This document shows, piece by piece, positions 34,399 to 51,594 of a DNA stretch of 64,000 nt (its first letter is position 1; the number at the start of each line of letters is the position of its first letter). The notes under the pieces are model-generated. The model saw only the letters and a program-made list of their open reading frames with translations. It was not told where the DNA came from and did not search any database. This DNA is from Blastococcus sp. CT_GayMR19. GTDB lineage: Bacteria > Actinomycetota > Actinomycetes > Mycobacteriales > Geodermatophilaceae. Position numbers and translations under genes: made by a program. The stretch covers positions 372,001 to 436,000 of the forward strand of contig NZ_SPQL01000002.1 in the NCBI RefSeq assembly GCF_004570385.1. Reading direction: 5' to 3'.

Positions 34399-34402
34399 CC
34401 GG

Positions 34403-35455: not shown

Positions 35456-35500
35456 GGCAGGAAGTGTCCGGCCGGACGTGCCCCTGACGGAACCCCTAGC

Positions 35501-36584: not shown

Positions 36585-36660
36585 CCTAGCGCTAGGGATG
36601 GTTCGCCGCCCCTGCCCTCCTCGACGGTCGGTTCCACACACCGATGCCGAGGAGACCGCG

Positions 36661-38031
36661 ATGACCACCACTCGCATGCCGACGTTCACCGGCACCCTGC
36701 TCACGCCCGGGGCGCCCGGCTACGACGACGCCCGCCGGGTCTGGAACGGTGCGATCGACCGCCGTCCCGCCTTCATCGCCCGCTGCCGGCACGCCGACGA
36801 CGTCGCCGCCGCGCTCGGGTTCGCCCGCCGGCACGACCTCGCCGTCGCCGTGCGGGGCGGCGGGCACAGCATCCCCGGCTGGTCGGTCTGCGACGGCGGG
36901 CTGGTCGTGGACCTGACGGCCATGAAGGAGGTCCGCGTCGACCCGTCGTCCCGGACCGCGGTGGTGCAGCCCGGCGTGAACTGGGGCGAGTTCGACGCGG
37001 CCGCCCAGCAGCACGGCCTGGCCACCCCCGGCGGGGAGATCTCGCACACCGGGATCGCGGGGCTGACCCTCGGCGGCGGCATCGGCTGGCTCAGCCGCAT
37101 GCACGGCCTGGCCTGCGACAACCTGATCGCCGCCGAGGTCGTCACCGCCGACGGCGAGATCGTCGGCGTCGACGACGCCACGGACCCGGACCTGATGTGG
37201 GGCCTGCGGGGCGGGGGCGGCAACTTCGGCGTCGTCACCTCGTTCACCTACCGGCTGCACGAGGTCGGTCCCGTACCCGGCGGAGTGGTGTTCTTCCCCG
37301 GCGAGCGGGCGCCCGAGGTGCTGCGCCTCTACCGGGACCTCGGCGCCGTCGCGCCCCGGGAGCTGTCCCTGGTCGCGGTTCAGGTGACCGCGCCGCCGGC
37401 GCCGTTCGTGCCGGAGGACCTGCGCGGACGGCCGGTGGCCGGACTGTCCGCGGCGTGGTTCGGCGACCCCGACGAGGGCGAGCGGGTGCTGTCCCCGCTC
37501 CGGGCCGCCCTCGGTCGGCCGGCGATCGACCTGCTCGGGGTGCTGCCGTACTGCGCCCTGCAGCAGTCGGTCGACGCCAGCGCGCCGTGGGGCATGGCCG
37601 CCCACGTGAAGAGCGACTTCCTCGACGAGCTCGACGACGCCGCCCTCGACACGCTCGCCGAGCACGCCGCGCAGCGCAGCCACCCGGCGTCCCACGTACT
37701 GGTCCGTCGGCTGGGCGGGGCGATCGCCGACGTGTCCTCCGATGCCACGGCCTTCGCGCACCGGCGGGCCGCGCACATGACGACGATCGTGGGCGTGTGG
37801 GACCCGGGCAGCGACCCGGCGTCCGAGATCGACTGGGCGCGGCGGACCTGGGCCTCGACCCGGCGGCTCGCGTGCGGCACGTACGTCAACCACCTGGAGG
37901 ACGAGGGCGCCGCGCGGGTACGGGAGGCCTACCCGGTCGCCACGTTCGAGCGGCTGACGGCGCTGAAGACCCGGCTCGACCCGGCCAACGTCTTCCGGCA
38001 CAACCAGAACATCCCGCCGTCCGCCGGCTGA
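36661..38031 (+). CDS. BBE-like FAD-linked oxidoreductase
   Basis: A 456-residue oxidoreductase of the VAO/berberine bridge enzyme type. The FAD domain has RGGGHSIPGWS, whose His is the 8-alpha FAD attachment site, and GWLSRMHGLACDN, whose Cys is the second covalent site, so bicovalent FAD is expected. The C-terminal BBE segment ends LDPANVFRHNQNIPP. Such enzymes oxidise sugars or secondary metabolites; the substrate here is unknown. GAGGAGA precedes ATG 36661. The insertion sequence ends 76 bases upstream and probably altered its promoter. Confidence 0.9.
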   Translation: MTTTRMPTFTGTLLTPGAPGYDDARRVWNGAIDRRPAFIARCRHADDVAAALGFARRHDLAVAVRGGGHSIPGWSVCDGGLVVDLTAMKEVRVDPSSRTAVVQPGVNWGEFDAAAQQHGLATPGGEISHTGIAGLTLGGGIGWLSRMHGLACDNLIAAEVVTADGEIVGVDDATDPDLMWGLRGGGGNFGVVTSFTYRLHEVGPVPGGVVFFPGERAPEVLRLYRDLGAVAPRELSLVAVQVTAPPAPFVPEDLRGRPVAGLSAAWFGDPDEGERVLSPLRAALGRPAIDLLGVLPYCALQQSVDASAPWGMAAHVKSDFLDELDDAALDTLAEHAAQRSHPASHVLVRRLGGAIADVSSDATAFAHRRAAHMTTIVGVWDPGSDPASEIDWARRTWASTRRLACGTYVNHLEDEGAARVREAYPVATFERLTALKTRLDPANVFRHNQNIPPSAG

Positions 38032-38106
38032 CGGGAGGGCGACGCGCGAGACACCTCGGCGACGGGAGCCGAGGCCTTCTCCCGGGGTTGGCCGGGTTCT
38101 CGGATC

Positions 38107-38553
38107 TCAGCCCGGTGGGGCCTCCGTCCACCGCAGCCGCTTCTGCAGCAGGACGTCGAGGTCGAAGACCTCGCCGTCCCCTGCGCCCTTCCCGACCACG
38201 AGGGGCGGAGGGGCCGGGTCGACCCGGACGGTGCGCCACCTGCCGAACCGCACCGGCGGCACGGTGAGGACGTAGAAGCGGCCGTCGACGTCCACGCCGA
38301 CCGATCGGTTGGTGCGCAGGTACCACCCGACGACGCCGGTGCGGTAGCGACCGGACCCGGACCAGGGCCGAGCCGTCAGCTCCTCGGTCGGCACGCCCTG
38401 CTGCTTCGCCTGCGCGACGAACCGATCGAGAAGGACCTGCGCCTTCGCCGACTCCGCCTCGCTCCGCCGACGCTGCACCTCCACGTGGTACGCGGCGCGT
38501 TCGGTCAGCTCGCGCCGGCGCTCTTCCGCGTCGTTGCCCATCGGGACCTCCAT
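38107..38553 (-). CDS. hypothetical protein with helical N-terminus
   Basis: A 148-residue cytosolic protein I do not recognise. Residues 5-55 are charged and helical, possibly a coiled coil (EERRRELTERAAYHVEVQRR); the rest is beta-rich with WYLRTNRSVGVDVDGRFYVL and a final PPPLVVGKGAGDGEVFDLD. Composition and codon use match the chromosome. It stands alone between the oxidoreductase and a divergent membrane-protein gene. Confidence 0.6.
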   Translation of the reverse strand: MEVPMGNDAEERRRELTERAAYHVEVQRRRSEAESAKAQVLLDRFVAQAKQQGVPTEELTARPWSGSGRYRTGVVGWYLRTNRSVGVDVDGRFYVLTVPPVRFGRWRTVRVDPAPPPLVVGKGAGDGEVFDLDVLLQKRLRWTEAPPG

Positions 38554-38794
38554 CCGGTCGCGAGGTCCATTGGACGACGTCGTCGACGGCGCCGCGATGC
38601 GGGCGGGGTGGGACGTCGGGGCGGAACGCCGACACGTCGTCGTCCTGCACGTGGCCGGTCCCGGGGTCCGCGCTCCCCGTCAGGCCGCGCCAACAGCCAT
38701 GATGCAGCGCGCACGTCGACGAGGGACCCCACACGGGCGACGTCGGTGAGGGGATCACCGACGTCCCGTCCAGGCCGGACACCGGGAGCGAGAC

Positions 38795-39418
38795 ATGGCG
38801 ATCATCCTCGGCATCTTCGACCTGCTCGCGTATGCGGTACCGGGATCGCTCTACCTGACCACGTTCGCGTACGTGTCCCACCGAGCCGGCTGGATCGACG
38901 TCCCGAGCCTGCTGGGGCTTCCCTCGCTGCTGCTGGTCATCGCCATGGCCGTCGCGGCGTTCCTGACCGGGCAGGCGTCTCACCCGCTCGGAAACCTGGT
39001 CGATCGATTCAACCCGTTCGGTTCGATGCGGCTGTCGGAGGAGGCGAGGGAGGAATTCCTTCGCCGCAATGCCATCGCCACCCCGCGAAAGTTCCTGCAG
39101 CTGGATCCGTTCACACTGCTCGCCGCTCTCGCGGTGGACGACAAGGAAGCCGCTGCCGACGTCTTCCGCCTGAGATCCGTCGGCCTGATGCTCAGTCGTT
39201 CGGTCCCCGCGCTCGCCCTGGGCGCCGCGATCGCTCTCGCGGAGATCTTCACCGGCACGCTTCCACTGTTCGCGGGACTGACCGGCCTCTTCCTCGTACT
39301 CGTCGCTGCGGGATGCCTCTACCAGTCGGCGACGTTCCGCAAGTGGGCGATCATCCGGACGTACGAACTGTCCTTCTGGAACGACGACATGGACGCACGA
39401 CTCCCCGACGAGGAGTAG
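38795..39418 (+). CDS. hypothetical membrane protein
   Basis: A 207-residue protein with four hydrophobic helices in two pairs (residues about 5-25 and 38-60, then 132-150 and 155-172) separated by a charged cytosolic stretch (RLSEEAREEFLRRN...). GGAGCGAGAC precedes ATG 38795. I do not recognise the family. It is the last chromosomal gene before the left attachment site of the integrative element, 36 bases away. Confidence 0.62.
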   Translation: MAIILGIFDLLAYAVPGSLYLTTFAYVSHRAGWIDVPSLLGLPSLLLVIAMAVAAFLTGQASHPLGNLVDRFNPFGSMRLSEEAREEFLRRNAIATPRKFLQLDPFTLLAALAVDDKEAAADVFRLRSVGLMLSRSVPALALGAAIALAEIFTGTLPLFAGLTGLFLVLVAAGCLYQSATFRKWAIIRTYELSFWNDDMDARLPDEE

Positions 39419-39453
39419 CAGGAGATGGGCGGCCGCTCGTCGTGCGTCATCAG

Positions 39454-39468
39454 ACGTTGAAGCGGAAC
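39454..39468. other. attL core of the ychF element
   Basis: 15-base repeat ACGTTGAAGCGGAAC. Read on the minus strand with its left neighbour bases it gives ...TTC AAC GTC TGA, i.e. the displaced original end of ychF. Confidence 0.85.
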
Positions 39469-39573
39469 GTTCTGAGCGTGCTCGACAGTCGTTGACAGCC
39501 GTGGAGACTCGCGGTTGACCAGCGCATTCGTTGTTGGACGGCGTTGGTCGACAGCAGCCTCGAATGGAAGTCT

Positions 39574-39593
39574 TGTTGACTGGTTGTTGACTG
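39574..39593 (+). repeat. left arm-type repeat of the integrative element
   Basis: TGTTGACTGGTTGTTGACTG, a doubled TGTTGACTG word, 106 bases inside attL. Further GTTGAC words stand at 39491 and 39514. It matches the right copy at 19 of 20 bases in the same orientation; probable integrase arm-binding sites. Confidence 0.7.
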
Positions 39594-39733
39594 ACGTCTA
39601 CGCGGTCGGGCGCGTCGCCAGCTCCGGTTGCCGCTCGGTCGAACCAAGATCGGACACCGATTGAGTGCGCAGAGTTCAGGTGGGGCGGCGAGCCGGCCAG
39701 GCAGCCCCACCGGTGGGTGTTCCAGTGAGGACG

Positions 39734-39780
39734 CACGACAGCCCCGCCTCCCGGTGACCCCAGGGGGCGGGGCTGTCGTG
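39734..39780 (-). terminator. hairpin terminator after the TIR gene
   Basis: CACGACAGCCCCGCC at 39734 pairs perfectly with GGCGGGGCTGTCGTG ending at 39780, loop 17 bases, starting 10 bases after the TIR gene stop on the minus strand. Confidence 0.8.
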
Positions 39781-39789
39781 TTGGTGGGC

Positions 39790-40506
39790 TCAGTTCTCCC
39801 AGGCGGGGGGCAGGGCAGCGGCAGCCGCAGCGATCTTGGCGGCCACGGCGTCCAGCGAGGACTCGGCGGTGCTCAGACCCGCGTGCGAGGCGAGCATGGG
39901 GCTGACGTCGTAGAGCTGGTCGAAGGTGACCCCGTGCGTCACCGGGATGACGCGGTTGCTGCCGAGCAGCACGGCGAGTTCCTTCTCGGCGATGCCCTCG
40001 TTCTTAATGCTCTCCAGCAGCGCGGGCGTCACCAACACGATGCCGACGCGGGAGTTGCGGAGCCCCTTGTCGATCTCGCGGGTCATCAGCGACCCGAGGG
40101 GGATGTCCTCCTCGGAGAACCACACCGTCGCGCCGTTCGTCTTCAGGTGGCCGTGGAGCTCGGCCGCGCTGCCCTGCCGGTCGGGCCATGCGTGGCAGAG
40201 GAAGAGGTCCCGACGGTCCGGATTGACGCGGGCCTGCTCCGCCGCCTTCTCGGCGAAGGGCTGAAACTTCTGCCACTCCGTCGGGGTGTACGAGACCACC
40301 CGGCCAGCTCTGGTCCGGCGCGAGCCTCCACCGCCAGACGACCCGCCGGACGAGCTGCGGTAGCTCGACCCGCCGTAGCCGTAGGACGACCGAGGCGGGT
40401 AGGGCGAGTAGGACGAGCGGCGCGACCGCCCGTACCTACACACCGGGCAGTTCGCCGCCCCACTCGCGGTGCGGTGGCCTTCACGCGGAGCTGTGCATTG
40501 CGCCAT
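39790..40506 (-). CDS. TIR-domain protein with N-terminal zinc-ribbon-like segment
   Basis: A 238-residue protein. Residues 1-25 have a Cys-4, His-11, CPVC-20/23 pattern like a half zinc ribbon; 26-70 are a Ser/Gly/Tyr/Arg-rich flexible linker; from about 97 to 215 there is a TIR domain, beginning RRDLFLCHAWPDRQG, with TVWFSEEDIPLGSLMTREID (the Glu-rich catalytic helix region) and RVGIVLVTPALLES. Many bacterial TIR domains cleave NAD in anti-phage defence. The start ATG 40506 has GGAG upstream; an open frame further upstream lacks conserved features. Role in defence is inferred from domain and location. Confidence 0.83.
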   Translation of the reverse strand: MAQCTAPREGHRTASGAANCPVCRYGRSRRSSYSPYPPRSSYGYGGSSYRSSSGGSSGGGGSRRTRAGRVVSYTPTEWQKFQPFAEKAAEQARVNPDRRDLFLCHAWPDRQGSAAELHGHLKTNGATVWFSEEDIPLGSLMTREIDKGLRNSRVGIVLVTPALLESIKNEGIAEKELAVLLGSNRVIPVTHGVTFDQLYDVSPMLASHAGLSTAESSLDAVAAKIAAAAAALPPAWEN

Positions 40507-40889
40507 CTGGGTGTGTTCTCCTTCGTCCGGGTAACCCCCGGCATGGTGGAGAGCGGCACATGTTGCTAGCGTTCGGCGATCTACCCCACGTAGACGCACC
40601 CCGGTTCGCGGCCCCCGGCCATACGGACCGGGGTGTGACGTATCTCCGGGTGAATCTTGACATGCCGCGTGGACAACTCCGGGGGGTCCGACCGGCGTGT
40701 CATGTCCGCCGAACGACGAAGTCCCAGGTCAGCGGCTCGAGAACTGATACCCCAAAAGTAGACAAAGGCCCCGATCGGGGTGCTCAGGAGCCCGCCGGGA
40801 GCTCAGTCCTCCCAGGTGAAGTCGAGACGGGCCCGCAGCGTGCGCGCCGAGGTGGCGATGGCGCTGCCACCCTTGCGGCCCAGGGGGAC
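40507..40889. other. 383-base gap with an in-frame remnant
   Basis: No full gene recognised. On the minus strand, 40803-40889 continues in frame after the TAG of the next gene and would encode GGSAIATSARTLRARLDFTW-like sequence to a TGA, so it may be a severed tail of that gene. The rest shows nothing. Confidence 0.4.
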
Positions 40890-41297
40890 CTAGCGTCGCC
40901 GACCGAGTTCAGGGAGTCCGCCGCTGACGGCTCGTACCGACGAGCTTGGCTGCCTGCTGCCCTTGTCGGCTTCTTCGGCGGCACGGCGCTGCTCCCGGAT
41001 ACGACGCTCAGCTGCCATTGCCGTTCGGTATTCGTCGCGAGGTGAGGTCGCCGCAGATGGTCGCCGAGCCTGTGGGCTAGGAACTTGGTGCTCTGCGGCC
41101 TTTTCGCAGCGGCCGCAGACGCTTGTGCGATTCGAAGCGATGTCCGAAAGCACGCCATCCCTCGTCGACCAGCCCGCCCCAATGGGTCGCCCACCGCAAA
41201 GTGTATTCTGGCCGTCTTCACGGAGCCGGTGCCAGGCAAGGCGACCGTGCCAGGGTGCCTGCATTTGAACCCAACGATCACTTCCAGTCGACCCCAC
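40890..41297 (-). CDS. small Cys-containing hypothetical protein, possibly truncated
   Basis: A 135-residue frame with the pattern WHRL..NTLCGGRPIGAGWST....SVCGRCEKA, which looks like a two-part zinc-binding site seen in actinobacterial accessory proteins, then a charged helix (EYRTAMAAERRIREQRRAAEE). ATG 41297 or 41264 could start it; neither has a good ribosome site. It stops at a TAG and the same frame stays open for 28 more codons, suggesting a nonsense change. No function assigned. Confidence 0.42.
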   Translation of the reverse strand: MGSTGSDRWVQMQAPWHGRLAWHRLREDGQNTLCGGRPIGAGWSTRDGVLSDIASNRTSVCGRCEKAAEHQVPSPQARRPSAATSPRDEYRTAMAAERRIREQRRAAEEADKGSRQPSSSVRAVSGGLPELGRRR

Positions 41298-41619
41298 GTC
41301 GCCAGGCTATTCGCGGCCAAGCCGAACCGTCGTCCAAGGCGCTACGTATGGGTAAGCACCCGGGCCCCTCCTCTTGGCAGTACTGACGTCTCTCAGCGGC
41401 CCGCCTTGGGACAGCCCGGCGTCTAGCTCGCAAGCGCCAATCAGACCAGCCGGCGGCTTTGACGAGACCCGTCACGGCACAACGGTTTCGCCCTCGTACG
41501 TCGCCGAACCTCTTCCCGTTCCTGGGGGTGATCCCGACTGGGTCCACCGGCCGGCCAACTTCTGTCGGTGGTCTCGGTTACGGTCCTGCCTCGGCCGGAA
41601 ACCGGAAGGGACTACGCCC
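41298..41619. other. 322-base gap with one hairpin repeat copy
   Basis: No gene supported; an open frame upstream of 41620 belongs to the nuclease gene but lacks a ribosome site and conserved look. Contains the hairpin repeat at 41388-41414. Confidence 0.5.
41388..41414 (+). repeat. element-specific hairpin repeat, copy 1
   Basis: Divergent copy: GTCTCTCAGCGGCCCGCC then TTGGGACAG; the outer bases pair as GTCTC/GGGAC. Confidence 0.5.
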
Positions 41620-42447
41620 ATGTGGGACGACGACCCCGACCGTCAGGAGTCGGTGGAGTACGTGCTCGGCGCAACCGCCCACCTGCTTGCCCAGATGGGC
41701 GATCAGCAGGCAGCTCTGCTCCTTGAGGACGTAGAACGACTCGACATCGAGTTCGAGCAACGCGGGTTGATGGAGAAGAACCCGTGGGCCGGAGATGACT
41801 CTTTGTCGCCAAAAAGCTCCAGCGTCTACTACTTCGACGTCGAGCCGTACCTCAAGCCTCGGTTCACCCCGCAAGTGCTGGAGCGCATCTTTCCCGTGAT
41901 GCGGAGCCTCGCCAAGCGGACGTACCTCCCCGAGCCCGAGTTCCTCGATACCCGCCTCGCGCTGCCCAGCATCGACACCAAGACCTGGCGAGAGTCGCTG
42001 CGCCACCAGTACGCCAGCGCGGACGTCACCAACTCGGCGCGCAAAGAGAGGCTGGACCCTCAGTCGCCAGTTGCCGATGGCCTCACTTTCACCAACGCCG
42101 AGGAATTGGCGGTCTACGACGCGCTGGTCCGCTTGCAGGCTGCGACGCTCGAGGACCGAACGTTCGCAATCTCGCCGCTACCCGGCACCCGTATCCGGGC
42201 GGGCAACGTCTGGACGCCGGACTTCCTTTTGATTGGGAACGGGCGAGCCATGCTGATCGAGGTCGACGGACCGCACCACTCCCAGGCGCAACGCAGAGCC
42301 GACGACGACATGCGAGACGCGCAATGGCGACGTTGCGGAGTCCAAGTTCGTCGGGTCCCGGTGGAGTACACCCGAGCAGAGCGCGCCAGCGAGCTGAGGG
42401 CGTGGCTCAAGGTGGAGGTAAAGGACGGTCTCGGATTCGGGCGCTGA
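41620..42447 (+). CDS. hypothetical protein with C-terminal PD-(D/E)XK-like endonuclease domain
   Basis: A 275-residue protein. The N-terminal 140 residues are acidic and helical and not recognised. From about residue 155 (FTNAEELAVYDALVRLQ) it resembles DUF559/VSR-type restriction-fold nucleases: VWTPDFLLIGNGRAMLIEVDG gives the Asp...Glu-x-Asp active-site triad and GPHHSQAQRRADDDMRDAQWRRCGVQV the following helix with basic residues. ATG 41620 has GAAGGG upstream. In this element, next to a TIR gene, it is a plausible second defence effector; that is inference. Confidence 0.68.
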   Translation: MWDDDPDRQESVEYVLGATAHLLAQMGDQQAALLLEDVERLDIEFEQRGLMEKNPWAGDDSLSPKSSSVYYFDVEPYLKPRFTPQVLERIFPVMRSLAKRTYLPEPEFLDTRLALPSIDTKTWRESLRHQYASADVTNSARKERLDPQSPVADGLTFTNAEELAVYDALVRLQAATLEDRTFAISPLPGTRIRAGNVWTPDFLLIGNGRAMLIEVDGPHHSQAQRRADDDMRDAQWRRCGVQVRRVPVEYTRAERASELRAWLKVEVKDGLGFGR

Positions 42448-42596
42448 AGCCTCGAGCCCTCCCTCCCGCAGGGACGGACGATGGTGTTGCTTGAGCGTGC
42501 GAGCCACCGCTTTGGTGAGGTCTCCCGGAGATCCGACAGTGTGGGCTCCTGGCGTCCAGGGCCATGGCTTTCGCCCGTGCCTCGTAAAGCCGCCCC

Positions 42597-42625
42597 GTCT
42601 CCCAGAGCGGCCCACTTAGGGACAG
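42597..42625 (+). repeat. element-specific hairpin repeat, copy 2
   Basis: GTCTCCCAGAGCGGCCCAC then TTAGGGACAG. It overlaps the stop codon of the minus-strand gene ending at 42616. Confidence 0.6.
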
Positions 42626-43230
42626 TCCGGTCGCTTTGGAAAGGGGCCGGTTTCGGGGGTCAGTCCCCATACAAGCGGCCACTGGATCGGCATGGCGTCA
42701 AGGACACTGTCAGTCGGTCCGTCAAGCGAGCGGATTGGGCCGATACCGAAGGCTGCAGGGATCTCGATACCGACCAAGAACGCGCCGATCGGTGATACCA
42801 CGGGCACAATGCCCCGGCGGTCCGGTCCGCGGTAGCCGACCGCTGTCACGTCCCGCCCGACCCGACCACCGACGAGTCCGTAGCAGCCACCAGTCGACGG
42901 GGATCGCAGCTCACTGGTGAGGCCCATGATTGCCACAACACCGGAGGGGATCGGGGCGTCCAGGTCTCCCAGCCACGAGCCACCCCCGGAGCTCGCGAGC
43001 TGCCAGCGACCCGCGTTGACGAACGTGTCGACCCGCGCGTCCACCTCGTCACTGTTCCGTTCGCGTTCGACCCACAGCACCGCAGCCACATCTCCCTGCT
43101 GCCAGACCGCCAGCGGGACCTCGACGATCTCGTCGACAGCGACCGGCATCCGGGGAGGCGGGGCCGGCATCCCCTCGGCGAGAAAGCGCTCGAGACGGGC
43201 CACCCATGGGTCGGCAGGCGGGAACGTCAT
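42616..43230 (-). CDS. hypothetical protein (204 aa)
   Basis: A soluble protein I do not recognise. It has an acidic amphipathic N-terminal helix (PWVARLERFLAEGM), a Pro-rich turn, then a beta-rich body with VLWVERERNSDEVDARVDTF and GGRVGRDVTAVGYRGPDR, and a final PLVWGLTPETGPFPKRP. Its ATG directly follows the TAG of the upstream gene (TAGATG), so the two are translated together. Its stop lies inside a hairpin repeat copy, which may serve as terminator. Confidence 0.55.
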   Translation of the reverse strand: MTFPPADPWVARLERFLAEGMPAPPPRMPVAVDEIVEVPLAVWQQGDVAAVLWVERERNSDEVDARVDTFVNAGRWQLASSGGGSWLGDLDAPIPSGVVAIMGLTSELRSPSTGGCYGLVGGRVGRDVTAVGYRGPDRRGIVPVVSPIGAFLVGIEIPAAFGIGPIRSLDGPTDSVLDAMPIQWPLVWGLTPETGPFPKRPDCP

Positions 43231-43515
43231 CTACGGGGCACCTCCGTGATCGCGCTCCCAATGCCAGTCAGTTAGCCGCTCATGTACCGGCACGGTGTTG
43301 ATGTAGAGGTCGCGCCACCCCTCCGACTCCAGCCTCGTGATGCATGCCGCAGCTTCTCCTTCGGTCATGAACGCGCCCAGCTGGTAGGAGCTACCGTCCT
43401 GCTCGTTGATTTTCTCCACCATGTGGACGACGAACGGATCCTTGTACCCCGAGGGCAGCCACATGACATGGGAGCGATAGCTGCGTAGCACCAGGCGGCC
43501 AAGGCGGATGCGCAC
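43231..43515 (-). CDS. hypothetical protein (94 aa)
   Basis: A small protein, basic at the N-terminus (MRIRLGRLVLRSYRSHVMW), with EGEAAACITRLESEGWRDLYINTVPVH reminiscent of a ferredoxin-like or 'data entry' fold with a central helix. No known family recognised. It heads a two-gene unit with the 204-residue gene, no gap between them. Confidence 0.55.
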   Translation of the reverse strand: MRIRLGRLVLRSYRSHVMWLPSGYKDPFVVHMVEKINEQDGSSYQLGAFMTEGEAAACITRLESEGWRDLYINTVPVHERLTDWHWERDHGGAP

Positions 43516-43655
43516 GCCGGAACCCTAGTTCGGCGGTGGTGCCAATCGATCTGGCCTCAGTGGACACGCGGGCCGCCTCGAGCGGCCTGACTTCCCCCAG
43601 TCGGCGACTGGCAGAGTCGGGTCCAAGTATGGGGACGTGCTGCTGTGCCGCGCGA

Positions 43656-44147
43656 TCAGCTGACCATCTCGCAGGCGTCGCGGTTGAAATCCACTTCGCT
43701 GACGACAACGTTGACGTCCCCGGAGGCGTCATTGTCGCCGGCCCAGTAGACGACCCGGCCCGGCTCGACGGTCGCAAGTTCCGCCAGGGTGAAGGTGACG
43801 GAGTTCGCGGACCAGGAGTTGTCGCTGGTCCACCCGTAGAGCGTGTAGTCGATACCAGGCTGCAACTCACCGAGAGGCGGTGCTGCCTCCCAGTCGGATG
43901 GCGGATCAGCCAGCGACCACTTGGCGAACTGCGTTACCGGATCCGAAGCCGTCCAAGAGCCCAAGTCGTCGTTCTCGTCGTGGTAAATCGTCGCCCCGTG
44001 GATGCTGTCGTGGCAGACACGCAGATACCCGACGAGCCGACCCAGCTTGTCAACGCCTACTCCTGCGACGGCTGCGCCGGGTACTGAGCAGGCAGAGGTC
44101 AGCATTGGCGCGATAAGCGTCGCGACGATCAGTAGCAGTCGGCGCAC
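43656..44147 (-). CDS. lipoprotein, unknown function
   Basis: A 163-residue exported protein. MRRLLLIVATLIAPMLTSAC is a textbook signal with lipobox LTSAC. The mature part is beta-rich, acidic and aromatic (YGWTSDNSWSANSVTFTLAEL, RVVYWAGDNDASGDVNV), with two more cysteines. I recognise no family. Being surface-located cargo of a mobile element, it could act in exclusion or attachment; that is speculation. Confidence 0.65.
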   Translation of the reverse strand: MRRLLLIVATLIAPMLTSACSVPGAAVAGVGVDKLGRLVGYLRVCHDSIHGATIYHDENDDLGSWTASDPVTQFAKWSLADPPSDWEAAPPLGELQPGIDYTLYGWTSDNSWSANSVTFTLAELATVEPGRVVYWAGDNDASGDVNVVVSEVDFNRDACEMVS

Positions 44148-44256
44148 GCGCGGAGCCTATGGGTTGCGTGGCGTCACCTACTGGACCTTGATCGGACTGT
44201 TGCGCAGCAAACACAACATGCCTAGACAGGTCGGGTTCCTGGGCTATGCCGGCCCT

Positions 44257-44285
44257 GTGTCCCAGAGCGGCCCACCTAGGGACAC
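44257..44285 (+). repeat. element-specific hairpin repeat, copy 3
   Basis: GTGTCCCAGAGCGGCCCACC then TAGGGACAC. The outer GTGTCCC/GGGACAC arms pair perfectly around a 15-base loop. Confidence 0.65.
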
Positions 44286-44341
44286 CTGTTGACGCCGGAC
44301 CGGCCCTCCACCCCGGCGGACCGTGAGATGGTCAGCGAGCC

Positions 44342-44623
44342 ATGCTGACGCCAGAATCGCGCGAGCTGCTTCGGTCCGTCTACGAGGACCTGTCGCAGCC
44401 GGATCCATACCCGGAAACCGCCAGCGACGCAGACCAAGATGCCTGGATGGACCGAAAGGAGGCGGAGTCGGCACTCGCCGGCCTGATCAGCACTGCACTT
44501 GCGCCCGGCCGTGTGGACAAACAGGCTCTGAACGAGACGCGTGCCCTCGTGGAGAAGGGTGGCACTGGCGCCGACGCTGCGCGGGTAGCCGCGGCGCTCC
44601 GCGTCCTGGCTCAAGCGACTTAG
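44342..44623 (+). CDS. hypothetical helical protein (93 aa)
   Basis: Acidic, all-helical small protein (LTPESRELLRSVYEDLSQPDPY and an Ala-rich C-terminal helix DAARVAAALRVLAQAT). Not recognised. The ATG at 44342 lacks a strong ribosome site. A hairpin repeat copy stands on each side of it (44257 and 44652). Confidence 0.5.
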   Translation: MLTPESRELLRSVYEDLSQPDPYPETASDADQDAWMDRKEAESALAGLISTALAPGRVDKQALNETRALVEKGGTGADAARVAAALRVLAQAT

Positions 44624-44651
44624 GCAGCCGGGTGTCTCTAGGGCGACTGCG

Positions 44652-44680
44652 CTGTCTCTGAGCGGCCCACGTAGGGACAG
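44652..44680 (+). repeat. element-specific hairpin repeat, copy 4
   Basis: CTGTCTCTGAGCGGCCCACG then TAGGGACAG; CTGTCTC/GGGACAG pair with one G-T. Confidence 0.6.
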
Positions 44681-44699
44681 CTGCGCGTGAAGCGGGGGC

Positions 44700-45089
44700 G
44701 TGTCCAAGGTCGTCAAAGGCAGGGCGTGCGATCTTGAGGTCATGTGGCGAGGGGACGATGGACGGTTTCACACGGTCGCTCTGCCTGATCCCGGCGAGGT
44801 GTTCACAGAGCCAGCCTTGGCGGCCATCGAGCAGGTGCTAGCTCAAGCGAAGTCGGAGGACATCGCCGAGCTGGTGGAGCGCCGTGAGCTGGCCGTTGTT
44901 GAGTACTGGGACGACCAACCGGTCGATGGAGAAGCCGAAGCGCCGTTCGTTGACTCGACCCCGCCCATCGGCTTGTTCGATCGCGTCGTCGGGAGTCTCT
45001 CGGAGCTTGAGGCCGCCCTGGCTGAAGTCGACCCCCGCTGGGGACTGGACGTCGTTACAGCTCTTGACGACCTCGTAGAAGCAGACTGA
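44700..45089 (+). CDS. hypothetical acidic protein (129 aa)
   Basis: A soluble, acidic protein (pI low) beginning at GTG 44700; KGRACDLEVMWRGDDGRFHTVALPDPG suggests a small beta-sheet domain, followed by helices EPALAAIEQVLAQAKSED and ELEAALAEVDP. No family recognised. It follows the 93-residue gene on the same strand with one hairpin repeat between them. Confidence 0.5.
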   Translation: MSKVVKGRACDLEVMWRGDDGRFHTVALPDPGEVFTEPALAAIEQVLAQAKSEDIAELVERRELAVVEYWDDQPVDGEAEAPFVDSTPPIGLFDRVVGSLSELEAALAEVDPRWGLDVVTALDDLVEAD

Positions 45090-45160
45090 GCGGGAACTCC
45101 GCCCTGTCCCTGAAGTCCCGTTGGCCCCTGTTGGGGAGCGCCGTTCCGGGCTGAAAATGG

Positions 45161-45333
45161 TGTGCGGCCGCCCGTTGACGTCGTAGTCGCCTGGTCGTTC
45201 GAGGCCGTTCTGAAGTCGGGCGCCGGGAGCTGTGCTGTGGGCCGTTTCGTGTGCTTCGAGCACGAGGATTAGATTCGCCGATCCCTGCAGCTCCTACGGG
45301 TGACCGCCTCCAGATCAGCTCGGAGGAGGCGAG
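45161..45333 (+). ncRNA. candidate bridge-RNA region of the IS110 element
   Basis: In the IS110 group the non-coding left end upstream of the transposase encodes the bridge RNA that pairs with donor and target DNA. This 173-base stretch is non-coding, in the right place and GC-rich with several short inverted repeats (for example GAGCTGTGCTG/CAGCTC-like pairs). The loops cannot be assigned by eye. Confidence 0.35.
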
Positions 45334-46587
45334 ATGCAGGTCGAGACCGACGAGCCCGAGATCATCGAACGGGTCGCCGCGCTGGATGTGAGCAAGGCCG
45401 AGGTGGTGTGCTGCGCCCGGGTGCCCGGCCCCGGCCGGCAGCGGATGCAGGAGGTCCGCACCGTCTCCACGATGACGGCGGCGCTGCTGGGTCTGGGTGA
45501 CTGGTTGGCCGGCCTCGGAGTGACCCGGGTGGTGATGGAGGCGACCAGCGACTACTGGCGCGCGCCGTTCTATCTACTGGAGGACCGCTTCGAGACGTGG
45601 CTGGTCAACGCCCACGACGTCAAGCACCTGCCCGGCCGGCCCAAGACCGACCGGCTGGACGCGGTGTGGCTGTGCAAGGTGGCCGAGCGGCAGATGCTGC
45701 GGCCCAGCTTCGTGCCCCCGCCGGCAATCCGGCAGCTGCGCGATCTGACCCGCTACCGGGTGGACCTGCTGGCCGTGCGCACCGCGGAGAAGCAGCGGGT
45801 GGAGAAGCTGCTCGAGGACGCGCTAATCAAACTCTCGGTCGTGGTCAGCGACCCGTTCGGGATCTCCGGGCGGGCCATGATGGCCGCGCTGATCGCCGGC
45901 GAGCGTGACCCGGCCGTGCTCGCCGAGATGGCCCGCGGCAGCATGCGCTCCAAAACCGCCCGGCTCACCGAATCGCTGACCGGGCGGTTCACCGAGCATC
46001 ACGCCTTTCTGCTGACCCAGATGCTGCAGCGGGTGGACGCGGCCACCGCCGACATCGCCACCGTGCAGGCCCGGATCGAGGCCCGGATCGGCGAGCTGGG
46101 GCCGGCGGTCGCCCGCCTCGACGCCATTCCCGGGATCGGGCCGGTCGCCGCGCAGATGATCCTCGCCGAGATCGGCACCGACATGGGCCGGTTTCCCACG
46201 CCGGGGCACCTGACCTCGTGGGCGCGTTTCGCGCCCGGAGTAAGTGAGTCCGCCGGCCGTCCGACGGGCAACTCCGGCACCGGAAAGGGCAACCGCTACC
46301 TGGCCCGGGTGGTCGGCGAAGCCGCGGTCAGCGCCGCCCGCACCGACACCTTCCTCGGCGAGCGATATCGACGGATCGCCCGACGACGCGGCAAGAAGCG
46401 AGCGATCGTCGCGGTCGGCCGCTCCATTCTGGTCATCGTCTGGGCGCTGCTCTCCGACGACGAGGCCCAGTTCGTCGACCTCGGCCCAGACTTCTACACC
46501 GCCCGCACCAACCCCGAGCGCAAGGTGCGCCAGCACATCCGTGAGCTTCAGGCCTTGGGCTACGCGGTGACGCTCAACCCCGCCTGA
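45334..46587 (+). CDS. IS110-family transposase (DEDD recombinase)
   Basis: A 417-residue transposase. The N-terminal RuvC-like DEDD domain shows ALDVSKAEVV (Asp), VVMEATSDYW (Glu) and KTDRLDAVWL (two Asp); the C-terminal Tnp_20-type domain has IPGIGPVAAQMILAEIG and the Ser-containing GVSESAGRPTGNSGTGKG segment. GAGGAGGCGAG precedes ATG 45334. Full length and apparently intact. Inserted inside the integrative element. Confidence 0.92.
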   Translation: MQVETDEPEIIERVAALDVSKAEVVCCARVPGPGRQRMQEVRTVSTMTAALLGLGDWLAGLGVTRVVMEATSDYWRAPFYLLEDRFETWLVNAHDVKHLPGRPKTDRLDAVWLCKVAERQMLRPSFVPPPAIRQLRDLTRYRVDLLAVRTAEKQRVEKLLEDALIKLSVVVSDPFGISGRAMMAALIAGERDPAVLAEMARGSMRSKTARLTESLTGRFTEHHAFLLTQMLQRVDAATADIATVQARIEARIGELGPAVARLDAIPGIGPVAAQMILAEIGTDMGRFPTPGHLTSWARFAPGVSESAGRPTGNSGTGKGNRYLARVVGEAAVSAARTDTFLGERYRRIARRRGKKRAIVAVGRSILVIVWALLSDDEAQFVDLGPDFYTARTNPERKVRQHIRELQALGYAVTLNPA

Positions 46588-46824
46588 TTAACCTCGGCAG
46601 AACTCCCCCCGCTCTGCTGGGAGGCCGCCCCCTGCCCTGGTCACGTTCATTTTCGGATTAGCCGCCTTCAGAGACACCGCGCCCACCACGCCCCACTCGC
46701 CGTCACGCCTGATTCGCGGTGTCTCATCACGCAGGAACGGGCCGCCTCCCGACACTGGAGAACTGCAAGATCACGAGGCCACACAGACCCGTGAATAACG
46801 GTGTTGCAGGCGCGCGTCAGCGCG

Positions 46825-46843
46825 GGACGGGCGAAGCCCGTCC
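46825..46843 (-). terminator. hairpin after the second IS110 transposase
   Basis: GGACGGGC-GAA-GCCCGTCC, an 8-base perfect stem with a 3-base loop, 21 bases past the stop of the minus-strand transposase. Confidence 0.6.
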
Positions 46844-46863
46844 TCCAGTTCTTCTGCAGTTGG

Positions 46864-48096
46864 TCAGGCGACCGGGTCGAGGACCACGGTGTGGCCGAGG
46901 CGCTCCAGCTCGGCGATCAGTCGACGGGCATGGCCCTCGTCGTTGCGGCGGGCCAGCCATTCCGGGCCGAGGTCGCGGTAGGGCTCGTCACGGGTCAGCA
47001 TCCAGTAGGCCGAGACCAGGATCGAATGGCCGACCGCCACCTGGGCCCGGGCCATGCCCCGGCGGCTAGTCAGCCTCGCGTGCTGGGCGGCGAGGTAGTT
47101 CGCGCCCTTCATCCGCCCCACCGAGCCGGCGGCCTCAACCAGCATCGCGGCCAGCCACTTGTTGCCGTGTGGCGGCCGCACCGGATAGCGCTTGCCGGCC
47201 GACTCCCGGGTGCCGGGCGAGACCCCCGCCCACGAGGCCAGATGGTCCGGAGTCGGGAAGCGGGACATGTCCCCGCCGGTCTCGGCGATGATCACCTGGG
47301 CGACCTTCTCCCCCACCCCCGGGATGGTCTGCAGCAGCTCGAGCTGGTGCGCGAATGGCGCGAACGCCTGGGCGAGGACGACATTCAGCTCGGCCAGCGC
47401 CGCCTCGACCGAGGAGATGCGGGACAGCATGCTGCGCGCCAGCTGGGCGTGCCCGGCGTCGAAGTGACCGGTCAACGCCTCGGTCAGGGCCGGGATCTTG
47501 CGGCGCATCTTGCCCTTGGCCAGCTCCGCCAGCACCCGCGGATCGTCCTCCCCACTGATGAGCGCAGCGAGCATGGCCCGGGCGGAGACGCTGGTCAGGC
47601 TCGCCGCGACGGAGGAGACCTTGATCGAGGCGTCCTCCAGCATCAGCTCCAGCCGGGTGATCTCCCGCGTCCGGTCGGCCATCAACTGCACCCGGTAGCG
47701 GGTCAGCATCCGCAGCCGCCGGATGTCCGGCGGCGGCACGAACGACGGTCGCAGCAGCCCGCACTCCAGCAGCTGGGCGATCCACTCGGAGTCCTTGACG
47801 TCGGTCTTGCGCCGCGAGATCGCCTTAATGTGCGCGGCGTTGATCAGCCAGACCTCCAGGACCTCCTCGAGGCAGTAGAACGCGCCCTTCCAGTAGGTCG
47901 AGGTCGACTCCATCGCCGCGTTCGTCACCCCCGACTCCAGCAGCCAGTCCCGCATCACCTGAAGTGAGCGGGTCATCGTCGAGAACGTCCGCGTCTGCGT
48001 CCGCCGCCCACCGCCCGGCGCGGGTGTGCGCACACAGACCGTCAGCGTCTTCTTGCCGATGTCCAGCCCGGCGACGCGTTCGTACAGAACTTCCAT
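46864..48096 (-). CDS. second IS110-family transposase
   Basis: A 410-residue DEDD transposase only distantly like its neighbour: GLDIGKKTLTV, AAMESTSTYW, KTDVKDSEWI carry the acidic residues, and TIPGVGEKVAQVIIAETG and GVSPGTRESAGKR the C-terminal domain. Intact frame; GGAGGAGGGATCGG precedes ATG 48096. It faces the first IS110 element tail to tail. Element ends were not found. Confidence 0.92.
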   Translation of the reverse strand: MEVLYERVAGLDIGKKTLTVCVRTPAPGGGRRTQTRTFSTMTRSLQVMRDWLLESGVTNAAMESTSTYWKGAFYCLEEVLEVWLINAAHIKAISRRKTDVKDSEWIAQLLECGLLRPSFVPPPDIRRLRMLTRYRVQLMADRTREITRLELMLEDASIKVSSVAASLTSVSARAMLAALISGEDDPRVLAELAKGKMRRKIPALTEALTGHFDAGHAQLARSMLSRISSVEAALAELNVVLAQAFAPFAHQLELLQTIPGVGEKVAQVIIAETGGDMSRFPTPDHLASWAGVSPGTRESAGKRYPVRPPHGNKWLAAMLVEAAGSVGRMKGANYLAAQHARLTSRRGMARAQVAVGHSILVSAYWMLTRDEPYRDLGPEWLARRNDEGHARRLIAELERLGHTVVLDPVA

Positions 48097-48385
48097 CTCC
48101 GATCCCTCCTCCGGTCGACGACCTGCAGGGCGTCGTCCGGAGGGTCCTCAACCCAAGGACACAGACCCGCGCGCTCACGGCAGCAATCAGAGGCACCCGA
48201 GGACCCCGCGCCATACACCTAGGCGGGCTCTCCCGCACCAGTGTGTGCCGACGTCGCCGGACGACAGGACCATTCTCATCGCCAGAGACTGCGATCAAGA
48301 TCGCAAAGGGATACACCTCTTGCATCTCGGGGTCGGACAATTCGTGGTGGCGAGTAACTGGAGGCTTGTCAGCACCCTCAGCGAC
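48097..48385 (-). other. 289-base non-coding leader of the second IS110 element
   Basis: No gene. As the region upstream of an IS110 transposase it is the expected place for that element's bridge RNA and left end. It includes TGCGAT-CAAG-ATCGCA (48287-48302) and GC-rich paired stretches near 48110-48145. Confidence 0.35.
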
Positions 48386-48925
48386 ATGGGCAGCAAGGGG
48401 ACGGCGGACTACCGAAGGCGGCGCGTGGAGGCCGAGCGCCGACGTCGAGTGAAGGCTGACCGGACGGCGTTCGAGCCCACGCTTTCAACGGCCGTCGATA
48501 GCGAAGGGCGCTCACCGGAACGACGAGCCGCCGCGGCCACCGACTGCGCTTGGTGCGGCGGGCCGATCACCCGACGCAGCCGTGGCCCGATCCCGAAATG
48601 GTGTTCGGCCACCTGCCGGCACCGCGCGTGGGAGCAGACCAGGGCCGCAGCGTCGGGCCGGTCCGCCGTGGAGGTAGTCGAGCGGCGCGTCAAGGTTGCC
48701 GTCCCTGTCTCACCGGCACGCCGCGACTGGCCGGGCCTGCTCGAGGAGCTCGCTCGCCAGATCGAGGACGGCCGGGTCTACAACCGCGACCTATTGGACC
48801 TGTCCGATGCCCTCAGCACCGTCCTCGAGGCATACCGCCGCCACCCATATGTGCGCAGTGGATCTGTCGACCACCAGCGCCAGGCGCAGGCGCGACAGCG
48901 AGCCCGTCGCAACCGAAACGGCTGA
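48386..48925 (+). CDS. zinc-ribbon-like hypothetical protein of the integration module
   Basis: A 179-residue, strongly basic protein. N-terminal 35 residues are Arg/Lys-rich; residues about 52-80 have CAWCGGPITRRSRGPIPKWC followed by SATCRHRAWEQ, a four-cysteine finger common in actinobacterial element-borne proteins; the C-terminal half is helical (LLEELARQIEDGRVYNRDLL). Likely DNA-binding. It sits upstream of the excisionase and integrase genes and may control them, by position only. Confidence 0.65.
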   Translation: MGSKGTADYRRRRVEAERRRRVKADRTAFEPTLSTAVDSEGRSPERRAAAATDCAWCGGPITRRSRGPIPKWCSATCRHRAWEQTRAAASGRSAVEVVERRVKVAVPVSPARRDWPGLLEELARQIEDGRVYNRDLLDLSDALSTVLEAYRRHPYVRSGSVDHQRQAQARQRARRNRNG

Positions 48926-49067
48926 GCGACGACCGCGCTCCTGGGACTGCAGGACAACTGGAGAAGCGCCCGCACGCTGACTGATGCGTGAGGTGGTCGA
49001 CCGGTGCTGACAGCAGTTGCGGCCACTCCGCCAGCCACCAGCCAACATCCAGCCCCCGGAGAGCCGC

Positions 49068-49277
49068 GTGACTCACATCAACCCGTCGACCAGCACAACC
49101 GACCTCATGACCCTCGCCGAGACCGCCGCCTATCTACGGACACCCGTCGCCACACTCCGGTACTGGAGACATCTCGGCGAAGGACCGGCCGGCTTCCGCC
49201 TCGGACGCCGAGTCGTGTACCGACGCGAAGACGTCGACCGGTGGATCGGTGAACGCCAACGGTCTGACGCGTCCTGA
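49068..49277 (+). CDS. excisionase-like helix-turn-helix protein
   Basis: A 69-residue MerR-like/excisionase DNA-binding protein: LMTLAETAAYLRTPVATLRY then WRHLGEGPAGFRLGRRVVYRREDVDRWI, the typical winged-helix excisionase layout. GTG 49068 follows GGAGAG. It lies 69 bases upstream of the integrase, the normal order for actinobacterial integrative elements, and should direct excision. Confidence 0.87.
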   Translation: MTHINPSTSTTDLMTLAETAAYLRTPVATLRYWRHLGEGPAGFRLGRRVVYRREDVDRWIGERQRSDAS

Positions 49278-49346
49278 GGGGTCGGGGCCTCGGTCTACGT
49301 TGGCCAGGCATCTGCACGTCACAGCGCGATTGACCTGGAGGTCACC

Positions 49347-50465
49347 GTGGCGAGCATTCAGGACCGGTGGCGACGCAAGGACCCGATCACGGGCCGGCTG
49401 GTGCCAACAGCCCAGGACGGGCAAGGCCTGCGCTACCGACCTCAGTTCCGCGATCCGTCGGGACGTCAGGTGGCGAAGTCCTTTGCCCTGAAGCGGGACG
49501 CCCAGCGCTGGCTCGACGACCAGACGGCGCACGTCACGCGGGGCACCTACGTCGACCCGGGCGCAGGACGCATCACCTTCCGCGAGTTCTACGTCGACTG
49601 GTCCAGCCGGCAGGTGTGGGCGCCCGGGACGGTTCTGGCGATGAAGCTGGCCGCCGGTTCGGTGCCGTTCGCGGACGTTCCGCTGCGCTCACTGCGCCGC
49701 TCGCACATCGAGGGCTGGATCAAGGGCATGGTCAACCGCGGACTCGCCCCCGGCACTGTCCACACCCGGACCAACAACGTGCGCGCTGTCCTGCGCGGCG
49801 CCGTCGCGGACCGGCTCATCTCCAGCGACCCGAGCATCGGGGTCACACTCCCCCGGCGCCGGCGCGCGCAAGCAGCGATGACGCTGCCTACTGCAGCGCA
49901 GGTCGGGGCCGTTCTGACGGCGGCCGACGAACGCTTCCGACCGTTCGTCGCGCTGTGTGCGTTCGCCGGCCTCCGGCTCGGCGAGGCCGCCGGCCTTCGG
50001 GTCGAGGACATCGACTTCCTCCGTCGCACTCTCACCGTTACCCGGCAGGTCCAGCGGGCCGGACGAGGTCAGGTCGAGATCCGAGCCCCCAAGTACGGCA
50101 GCGAGCGGGTCGTCTTCCTGGCGCCAGGGCTCGTCGACATGCTTGCCGCGCACATCGCTGCTCACCGACTGGAGAACGACTGGATCTTCACCGGAGAAGG
50201 CGACCAGCCACCGCACCAGAACACCGTCGGCCACCGCTGGCGCACCGCCACGGCGGCTGCCGGGGTCCCCGGTCTGCGGATGCACGACCTCCGGCACTTC
50301 TACGCCTCGGGCCTGATCGCTTCCGGATGCGACGTCGTCACCGTGCAGCGCGCCCTCGGGCACGCCTCGGCCACCACGACTCTCTCGACCTACTCACACC
50401 TGTGGCCGACCGCCGAGGACCGCACGCGGGCGGCCGCTCAGGCCTTGCTCGCAGAATCCTGTTGA
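49347..50465 (+). CDS. int: tyrosine-type site-specific integrase
   Basis: A 372-residue integrase. Residues about 1-60 contain an AP2-like arm-binding domain, 75-165 the SAM-like core-binding domain, and 175-365 the catalytic domain with AGLRLGEAAGL (Arg I), MHDLRHFYASG (His-x-x-Arg II), LGHASATTTLSTYSHLW (His III and the nucleophile Tyr). All catalytic residues are present. GGAGG precedes GTG 49347. It ends 60 bases from attR, and its stop overlaps an arm-type repeat. Confidence 0.95.
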   Translation: MASIQDRWRRKDPITGRLVPTAQDGQGLRYRPQFRDPSGRQVAKSFALKRDAQRWLDDQTAHVTRGTYVDPGAGRITFREFYVDWSSRQVWAPGTVLAMKLAAGSVPFADVPLRSLRRSHIEGWIKGMVNRGLAPGTVHTRTNNVRAVLRGAVADRLISSDPSIGVTLPRRRRAQAAMTLPTAAQVGAVLTAADERFRPFVALCAFAGLRLGEAAGLRVEDIDFLRRTLTVTRQVQRAGRGQVEIRAPKYGSERVVFLAPGLVDMLAAHIAAHRLENDWIFTGEGDQPPHQNTVGHRWRTATAAAGVPGLRMHDLRHFYASGLIASGCDVVTVQRALGHASATTTLSTYSHLWPTAEDRTRAAAQALLAESC

Positions 50466-50479
50466 CTGGGTGTTGACTG
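50460..50479 (+). repeat. right arm-type repeat of the integrative element
   Basis: TGTTGACTGGGTGTTGACTG, overlapping the stop of the integrase gene and 46 bases from attR. Partner of the left copy at 39574. Confidence 0.7.
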
Positions 50480-50520
50480 GAGACATAATGCAGGCCGCTG
50501 ACCTGCGCAAACAGGGCCGC

Positions 50521-51594
<1,074 letters not shown>

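Follow-up and report, generated by a model that had tools for sequence, protein, structure and literature searches.

The 64-kb window analysed here (64,000 nucleotides of the soil actinobacterium Blastococcus sp. CT_GayMR19, contig NZ_SPQL01000002.1, positions 372,001 to 436,000) contains an 11.07-kb stretch at 39454-50539 that is bounded by two attachment cores and an excisionase–integrase pair. This stretch is very probably an integrative element (genomic island) that entered the end of ychF by tyrosine-integrase recombination. The interpretation rests on sequence, namely on the junctions, the arm-type repeats, the preserved reading frame, the fidelity of related integrases to the site, and the empty sites of some relatives; roles in binding, excision, and transfer are inferred. 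Junctions, arm-type repeats, and relatives together support the initial annotation, which had already proposed an element with the 3' end of ychF as its attachment site.

Borders and attachment cores of the element

The borders are defined by the following features (positions in the window):

39454..39468, unstranded: attL (left attachment site) core, a 15-bp repeat of the ychF 3' end (repeat search)
39574..39593, unstranded: left arm-type pair TGTTGACTGGTTGTTGACTG, 105 bp inside the left core
49017..49277, plus strand: excisionase-type helix-turn-helix (HTH) protein, Xis (HTH_17, PF12728, 4e-12; phrog_66)
49347..50465, plus strand: tyrosine integrase, 372 aa (PF00589, 5.3e-24; phrog_1)
50460..50479, unstranded: right arm-type pair TGTTGACTGGGTGTTGACTG, 65 bp from the right core
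50499..50506, unstranded: TGACCTGC motif, 26 bp from the right core
50525..50539, unstranded: attR (right attachment site) core within the last ychF codons (repeat search)
50521..51594, minus strand: ychF, intact, 357 aa (YchF-GTPase_C, 2.4e-38, Pfam)

The 15-bp core ACGTTGAAGCGGAAC is present exactly and on the same strand at 39454-39468 and 50525-50539, as initially described for the end of ychF and a position 11 kb away. The 64 kb contain no further site with up to two mismatches, and none of 100 shuffled windows had two or more matches. The right core is the end of ychF itself, which lies on the minus strand and reads FRFNV with the final codons GTG TAA; the left core has the same codons but is joined on its outer side to an alternative ychF end, GTC TGA. 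The element side of the attR core holds the third base of the last ychF codon and the stop. The left flank thus retains the alternative ychF end, and the present end of the gene comes from the element.

The direct repeats equal the target site, and the integrase gene lies approximately 60 bp from attR. Pfam and PHROGs matches of both proteins bear out the excisionase–integrase pair that had been assigned to the right end. The two arm-type pairs are identical at 19 of 20 positions, in agreement with the 20-base repeat of the initial annotation, but they are located within the element, 105 and 65 bp from the cores, rather than in the core copies themselves. Across the whole window, the doubled words TGTTGACT are found at just two places, one near each core. 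The G+C content of the element is 67.6%, versus 71.5% for the window.

In the proposed mechanism, an attP (attachment site of the element) carrying GTTCCGCTTCAACGT would recombine with the identical terminal codons of ychF. The C-terminal part of the integrase would bind the core and its N-terminal part the doubled TGTTGACT words, and the HTH protein may act as excisionase. The insertion would have displaced the native ychF 3' end by 11 kb, and ychF would stay whole, since the C-terminal codons are duplicated in attP, which also provides a stop codon.

Site fidelity of related integrases

Among 112 genomes of the family, the integrase has matches (E-value ≤1e-50) at 92 places in 55 genomes, and a ychF match was found in 107. 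Genomes and loci are cited by G and L numbers, respectively. At ≥60% identity, 26 of the 28 places are no more than 5 kb from the 3' end of ychF, in convergent orientation; the other two are located 7 kb away on the same contig and, in the case of a 146-residue fragment, on another contig. At 54-59% identity, one of 16 integrases is at ychF and 15 are elsewhere, and below 50% identity, ychF is occupied in two of 48 cases (G020 and G072). The expectation that the same integrase always sits beside ychF therefore holds for 26 of 28 places at ≥60% identity and fails for 15 of 16 at 54-59%. Site choice follows the integrase clade and is not universal. Beyond the family, an integrase of Nocardioides sp. 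zg-1308 (54% identity) is also found at ychF; the 21-kb locus of the N. ganghwensis integrase (55%) yielded no ychF. The initial annotation considered ychF an unusual target, but it is not rare here: an integrase match lies no more than 10 kb away from the gene in 30 of the 107 genomes where ychF was detected. These relatives show that mobile DNA often docks at the ychF 3' end.

The same pattern is evident in a quick maximum-likelihood tree of 90 integrases, 23 of which were labelled ychF (core within 700 bp). The label requires 6 changes, versus 20.5 in shuffles, and was as low in 0 of 500. The window integrase belongs to a set of 11 that are all at ychF (Shimodaira–Hasegawa-like approximate likelihood ratio test [SH-aLRT], 99), which is nested in a clade of 37 (SH-aLRT, 100) with 21 ychF labels. 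Among the 16 unlabelled members of this clade, G060 is at ychF with a 1.5-kb gap, and L260 ends with its contig. G020 and G072 represent two more lineages with a separate use of ychF. Several branches are long, and the deeper placements (L236 and L008) are unsure.

Other integrases of the tree are associated with other protein-coding genes. In a sister clade of nine, seven (L081, L082, L083, L086, L170, L172, and L173) end at the 3' end of one gene, as judged from our own reading of the downstream DNA; in L081, this gene encodes a DUF520 protein (PF04461, 1.3e-62), which is presumably of the YajQ type. The target gene of a four-member clade, a fragment without Pfam match, presumably resembles a CpaF-type ATPase. 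Two relatives of the G020 integrase (L203 and L207) are located where an exonuclease-type gene ends (PF03372 in L207). The integrases of this set seem to favour protein genes, and target choice among related integrases shifts between the ends of conserved ones (ychF, the DUF520 gene, and the exonuclease-type gene).

Junctions and empty sites in relatives

Junctions were read in the 30 occupied genomes to at most approximately 20 kb past ychF (40 kb in two genomes; for G000, the window was used), and a distal core was counted if it was on the same strand with up to two mismatches. Such a core is present within the stretches examined in 19 of the 30 genomes, and paired cores occur also at four loci that lack a strong integrase match (L124, L129, L130, and L134). 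Core-to-core sizes range from 2.8 kb (G101) to approximately 35.7 kb (G062). When the Nocardioides locus is included, all 31 right junctions keep FRFNV with an immediate stop (TGA in 18, TAG in 10, and TAA in 3); in this Nocardioides element (L008), no distal core with up to three mismatches was found near its ychF. The right arm pair fits the pattern of the window in 17 of 31 ends, always 65 bp from the core, and the left arm pair in 11 of 23, at a distance of 105 bp (8 ends) or 114-115 bp (3 ends). Both ends fit in five elements, and each of the five has arm letters of one type at its two ends (TGTTGACT for the window, G049, and G063; TGCGGACT for G103 and G092). A TGACCTGC-like motif is located 25-27 bp from the core in 25 of the 31 right ends.

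Empty sites were sought by aligning 23 distal flanks (22 from relatives and that of the window) with 15 loci taken as unoccupied or remnant sites. The flank of L142 (G009) matches G050 over 1329 bp and that of L156 (G015) matches G029 over 1501 bp, in each case to 0 bp from both cores. L134 (G048) also matches G050 to 0 bp from both cores, with only 80 bp comparable, and the flank match of L149 (G024) reaches 6-12 bp from the cores. An uninterrupted counterpart, of the kind that the initial annotation proposed to seek in close relatives, was found for four of the 23 flanks, all of them from relatives, and for the window none was found.

Several observations weigh against insertion by a ychF-specific integrase. 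Part of the integrases in the wider clade use sites other than ychF. A distal core is absent from the stretch examined in 11 of the 30 occupied genomes, where several contigs or stretches are short, and the arm-pair pattern is restricted to the 17 right and 11 left ends mentioned above. No empty-site counterpart was found among the 15 loci for 19 of the 23 flanks, including the window's own junction; in the latter case, the left neighbour gene has no match in the other 111 genomes of the family.

Two further arrangements were observed at ychF. L165 (G098) has an integrase end and a core beyond the second core (2261-2746), which looks like tandem elements at one ychF. L135 (6190-8663) and L122 (7474-8906) possess a longer repeat of the ychF end (>30 bp), with a distant integrase in between in the case of L135; perhaps another integrase type uses the same gene end.

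Gene content and modular cargo

The remaining features of the element are as follows:

39734..39780, unstranded: strong inverted repeat beside the TIR gene, presumably terminator-like
39790..40599, minus strand: TIR protein of the ThsB type, 269 aa (PF13676, 5.3e-14; PADLOC ThsB, 1.9e-80)
41374..42447, plus strand: 357-aa protein without Pfam or PADLOC family (open reading frame [ORF] list, Pfam, PADLOC)
42616..43230, minus strand: hypothetical protein without Pfam family (Pfam scan)
43656..44147, minus strand: hypothetical protein, N-terminus lipoprotein-like by eye (Pfam scan)
44700..45089, plus strand: hypothetical protein without Pfam family (Pfam scan)
45334..46587, plus strand: IS110-family transposase (PF01548, PF02371)
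46864..48096, minus strand: IS110-family transposase, second copy (Pfam scan)
48386..48925, plus strand: small protein with paired-Cys motif, no Pfam or PHROGs family (BLAST cluster of five members including this one)

No ThsA partner of the TIR protein was recognised among the window proteins scanned. The C-terminal EVDGPHH of the 357-aa protein presumably marks it as a candidate PD-(D/E)XK-type nuclease. The 64-kb window contains no tRNA genes, and no relaxase, replication, or conjugation domains were recognised in those of its ORFs that were scanned with Pfam. The window proteins scanned with Pfam include neither the replication initiator nor the FtsK-like transfer domain that are hallmarks of actinomycete integrative and conjugative elements (AICEs); the relaxase expected of an integrative mobilizable element was not recognised in the same ORFs (an origin of transfer was not sought). 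Head, packaging, and tail genes of a prophage were not found with Pfam (PHROGs was used only on the integrase, the excisionase, and one small protein). Since no relaxase was recognised in the window copy, transfer between cells would need a relaxase-bearing relative, plasmid, or phage.

Three exact same-strand copies of GAGCGGCCCACNTAGGGACA are located within the element near the IS110 copies (42605-42624, 44265-44284, and 44660-44679), which exceeds chance; a fourth copy with three mismatches is found at 41394. An origin of the core repeats from IS110 was rejected, with the transposase genes lying 5.9 kb and 2.4 kb from the cores.

The modular nature of the island is evident in the comparison with G030, whose right end matches that of the window over 3.3 kb including ychF (94.5% identity) and whose left end matches over approximately 245 bp (89%). 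Its 5.3-kb element combines the same attachment sites and integrase module, with an integrase 98% identical to that of the window, with other cargo and another flank. BLAST clustering of the 210 ORFs called in 23 elements yielded few recurring clusters, comprising the integrase (22 proteins and fragments), HTH proteins (7), paired-Cys proteins (5), a protein of 1220-1226 aa (5), and two small unnamed clusters of 6 and 3 members. Of the 210 ORFs, the search for cargo families took in 20 selected proteins of related elements by Pfam (8 also by PADLOC), in addition to the window proteins. The 1225-aa member of this cluster in L142 was identified as a TrwC relaxase with helicase (PF08751, 7e-50), whereas the other four members were placed by BLAST clustering only; the protein is encoded near the left end in L142, L144, L145, L146, and G062. 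Other selected cargo comprises NB-ARC and nSTAND1-WD40 proteins, a LuxR-type regulator, a histidine kinase, transporters, and an aldehyde dehydrogenase. By its gene content, the window copy looks like a relaxase-less member of an island family, some members of which are possibly mobilizable.

Left flank and alternative explanations

For the 207-aa gene to the left of attL (38795-39418), none of the 111 other family genomes yielded a match (E-value ≤1e-5). The gene may itself be accessory, so its initial description as the last chromosomal gene on the left is doubtful. The entire stretch 34410-39453 is variable and carries a berberine-bridge oxidase in addition to the gene unique to this genome. 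The only counterpart of the window flank among the loci compared is a homologue of the 148-aa gene (38107-38553) in G031; the distance is 899 bp to attL in the window versus 1024 bp to ychF in G031.

It is conceivable, if tentative, that the 11 kb are the newest layer of a stack at ychF and that 34.4-39.45 kb are older island DNA, which would be compatible with integrase-mediated insertion of the element. In G029, the homologue of 32879-34409 directly abuts ychF, suggesting that 34.4-39.4 kb may be older accreted DNA. The confinement of the 207-aa gene to one of 112 genomes agrees with such layering, as does the additional DNA of 0.3-1.4 kb that separates attL from the conserved flank at L150, L146, and L129. 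However, the homologue of 38107-38553 is located approximately 1 kb from ychF in G031, much like in the window, and 30-39.4 kb contain no further core with up to two mismatches (one site with three mismatches lies at 38613).

A rather doubtful alternative, likewise compatible with insertion by the integrase, is a fixed remnant, integrated but unable to leave and kept for its cargo or by drift. The two IS110 copies inside the element and the lack of a recognised relaxase or replication gene would fit a remnant, and decay occurs at related loci, where integrase fragments are found at ychF (L124, L129, L130, L132, L133, and L137). By contrast, the reading frames of integrase and excisionase are open, the cores are identical, and the arm words agree at 19 of 20 positions; moreover, the near-identity with the G030 integrase despite differing cargo suggests fairly recent activity of the module. 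Finally, a chance repeat or a duplication of the ychF end, with the integrase acting elsewhere, is extremely improbable. The shortness of the repeat (15 bp) would favour it, but the shuffles, the distal cores in 19 of 30 genomes, the exact empty-site junctions of some relatives, and the fixed arm spacing all contradict it.

Integrase relatives on phages and plasmids

An integrase of the wider window clade, 50.5% identical to that of the window, is encoded on the IMGVR contig L236. It is followed by 24 bp, a ychF-end core joined to other DNA, a serine-type integrase, and genes for terminase, portal, and head. The tyrosine and serine-type integrases (L236:1386-4007) flank one ychF-end site, which may represent either an attP or the boundary between two tandem elements. 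Neither annotated phages nor annotated plasmids yielded a close relative of the window or L236 integrase at E-values ≤1e-30 (best identities 34% and 33%, respectively). Among viral contigs, there are 10 relatives of the window integrase, the best of which (51%) is located on a contig that ends before any site; the L236 integrase matched its own contig alone.

Same-strand arrays of ychF ends in other Actinomycetes

The 24-mer encoding the YchF C-terminus (up to three mismatches) was found in 318 of 394 genomes of the class, listed by sampling. Of 90 genomes from another family (f39), 13 have at least two matches on the same strand of one contig and no more than 20 kb apart, and one (G504) has an opposite-strand pair; many of the same-strand pairs include a copy with one or two mismatches. 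A sample of 39 loci from 35 genomes, chosen for such matches (G575 left out), includes L218, L219, L220, L222, L241, L257, and others in which further copies of the ychF end, at most five in addition to ychF, lie on the same strand. The outer copies tend to share a half-site unlike that of native ychF, approximately GGTTGNTCGGYNACGGAACTCGGTG before GAGTTCCGCTTCAACGT.

A matrix built from 16 sites, with half-sites drawn from part of these same selected loci, detected at least two same-strand sites in 24 of 38 loci (22 of 34 genomes; L243 left out), counting the ychF end where it scored. When ychF-type sites are excluded, at least two remain in 12 of 39 loci (10 of 35 genomes; L243 included), with a maximum of five. 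The controls gave one opposite-strand hit and none in reversed sequences (approximately 1.0 Mb, both strands). Sites are spaced at 0.3-7 kb, often approximately 1 kb, and small genes between them encode PIN-domain proteins, an HTH protein, a RhuM/Fic protein, and a mycothiol-transferase-type protein. A PIN protein beside a site is 67% identical between G294 and G585, which belong to two families, and an HTH protein is 68% identical between two genera. The cassette-site pattern has no exact match in viral contigs, 10 of which carry the plain ychF end.

A hidden Markov model of the window integrase family found no member in the array loci (other recombinase families beyond IntI were not sought), and the L236 integrase has a single match in 30 genomes (E-value ≤1e-40), clipped by the start of the contig. 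No IntI scored over the TIGR02249 cut-off in 20 genomes, 19 of which have array-type sites; weaker matches occur in all 20 but also in 13 of 14 controls and are hence no pointer to IntI.

The arrays are reminiscent of integron cassettes in that same-strand recombination-like sites surround small genes (toxins and antitoxins), but here the sites derive from ychF and not from attC. Single extra copies can be explained by decayed islands. Same-strand arrays with recurring small toxin-type genes make mobile cassettes possible, as a lead rather than a result. Several points speak against cassettes: in the G294/G585 pair, similarity is 70% over the PIN region and continues at 87% beyond the site; in the HTH pair, it covers just 234 bp inside, so neither pair is similar from site to site; the extra copies of L211 and L227 carry 34 to 130 YchF codons, which exceeds an attachment site; and the search for this integrase family and IntI yielded no recombinase. 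It is unlikely, given that shared DNA was not shown to end at the sites and that some copies contain longer ychF fragments, that the ychF 3' end is a general recombination platform in Actinomycetes for islands, perhaps phages, and recombinase-less cassette arrays on which integrases of the wider clade would act in trans. Under such a scheme, the cassettes, including toxin and antitoxin genes, would share a site of approximately 40 bp (about GGTTGNTCGGYNACGGAAC-TCGGTGGA-GTTCCGCTTCAACGT) and would form an integron-like system that uses the terminal codons of a housekeeping gene, without IntI or attC. If mobile, the ychF arrays would represent a gene-capture system distinct from integrons.

Comparison with known systems

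Salmonella genomic island 1 (SGI1) and its relatives are integrative mobilizable islands with varied cargo at the 3' end of trmE (PMC8409611, PMC6531882). The window element resembles them as an integrase-encoding island with varied cargo at the 3' end of a conserved protein gene, but differs in its target, integrase, and phylum and in having no known link to IncC plasmids; it has a 15-bp core with doubled arm words, and a relaxase was not recognised. The integrases that target dusA form a family that uses a single conserved protein gene across many genomes (PMC4482086), but these islands occupy the 5' end of the gene, whereas the window element occupies the 3' end of ychF. With ychF as its site, the element falls outside the trmE- and dusA-specific groups.

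AICEs with tyrosine integrases are located almost exclusively at the 3' ends of tRNA genes and typically encode tra and rep functions; tandem integration is known (PMC3218068). The window element shares with AICEs the actinobacterial host and the int and xis genes but has no recognised tra or rep genes, and its site is not a tRNA gene. The pneumococcal prophages PPH005 and phiBM6001.4 and a 19A prophage insert upstream of ychF, and the 19A prophage alters ychF expression (PMC8637289, PMC10383233, PMC6375853); in these cases, ychF neighbours the integration site, whereas the window element is inserted in the coding 3' end.

Searches of the open-licence PMC literature yielded no report of the 3' end of ychF (EngD) as an integration site, although the Integrase-On-Demand data (PMC12884075) could hold it. 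The kind of element is already known, and it is the ychF target and its breadth that were not found in the literature searched. The integrase clade has a predictable protein-coding attB (chromosomal attachment site) that is conserved far beyond its hosts, which helps to find the borders of islands and offers a possible integration tool.

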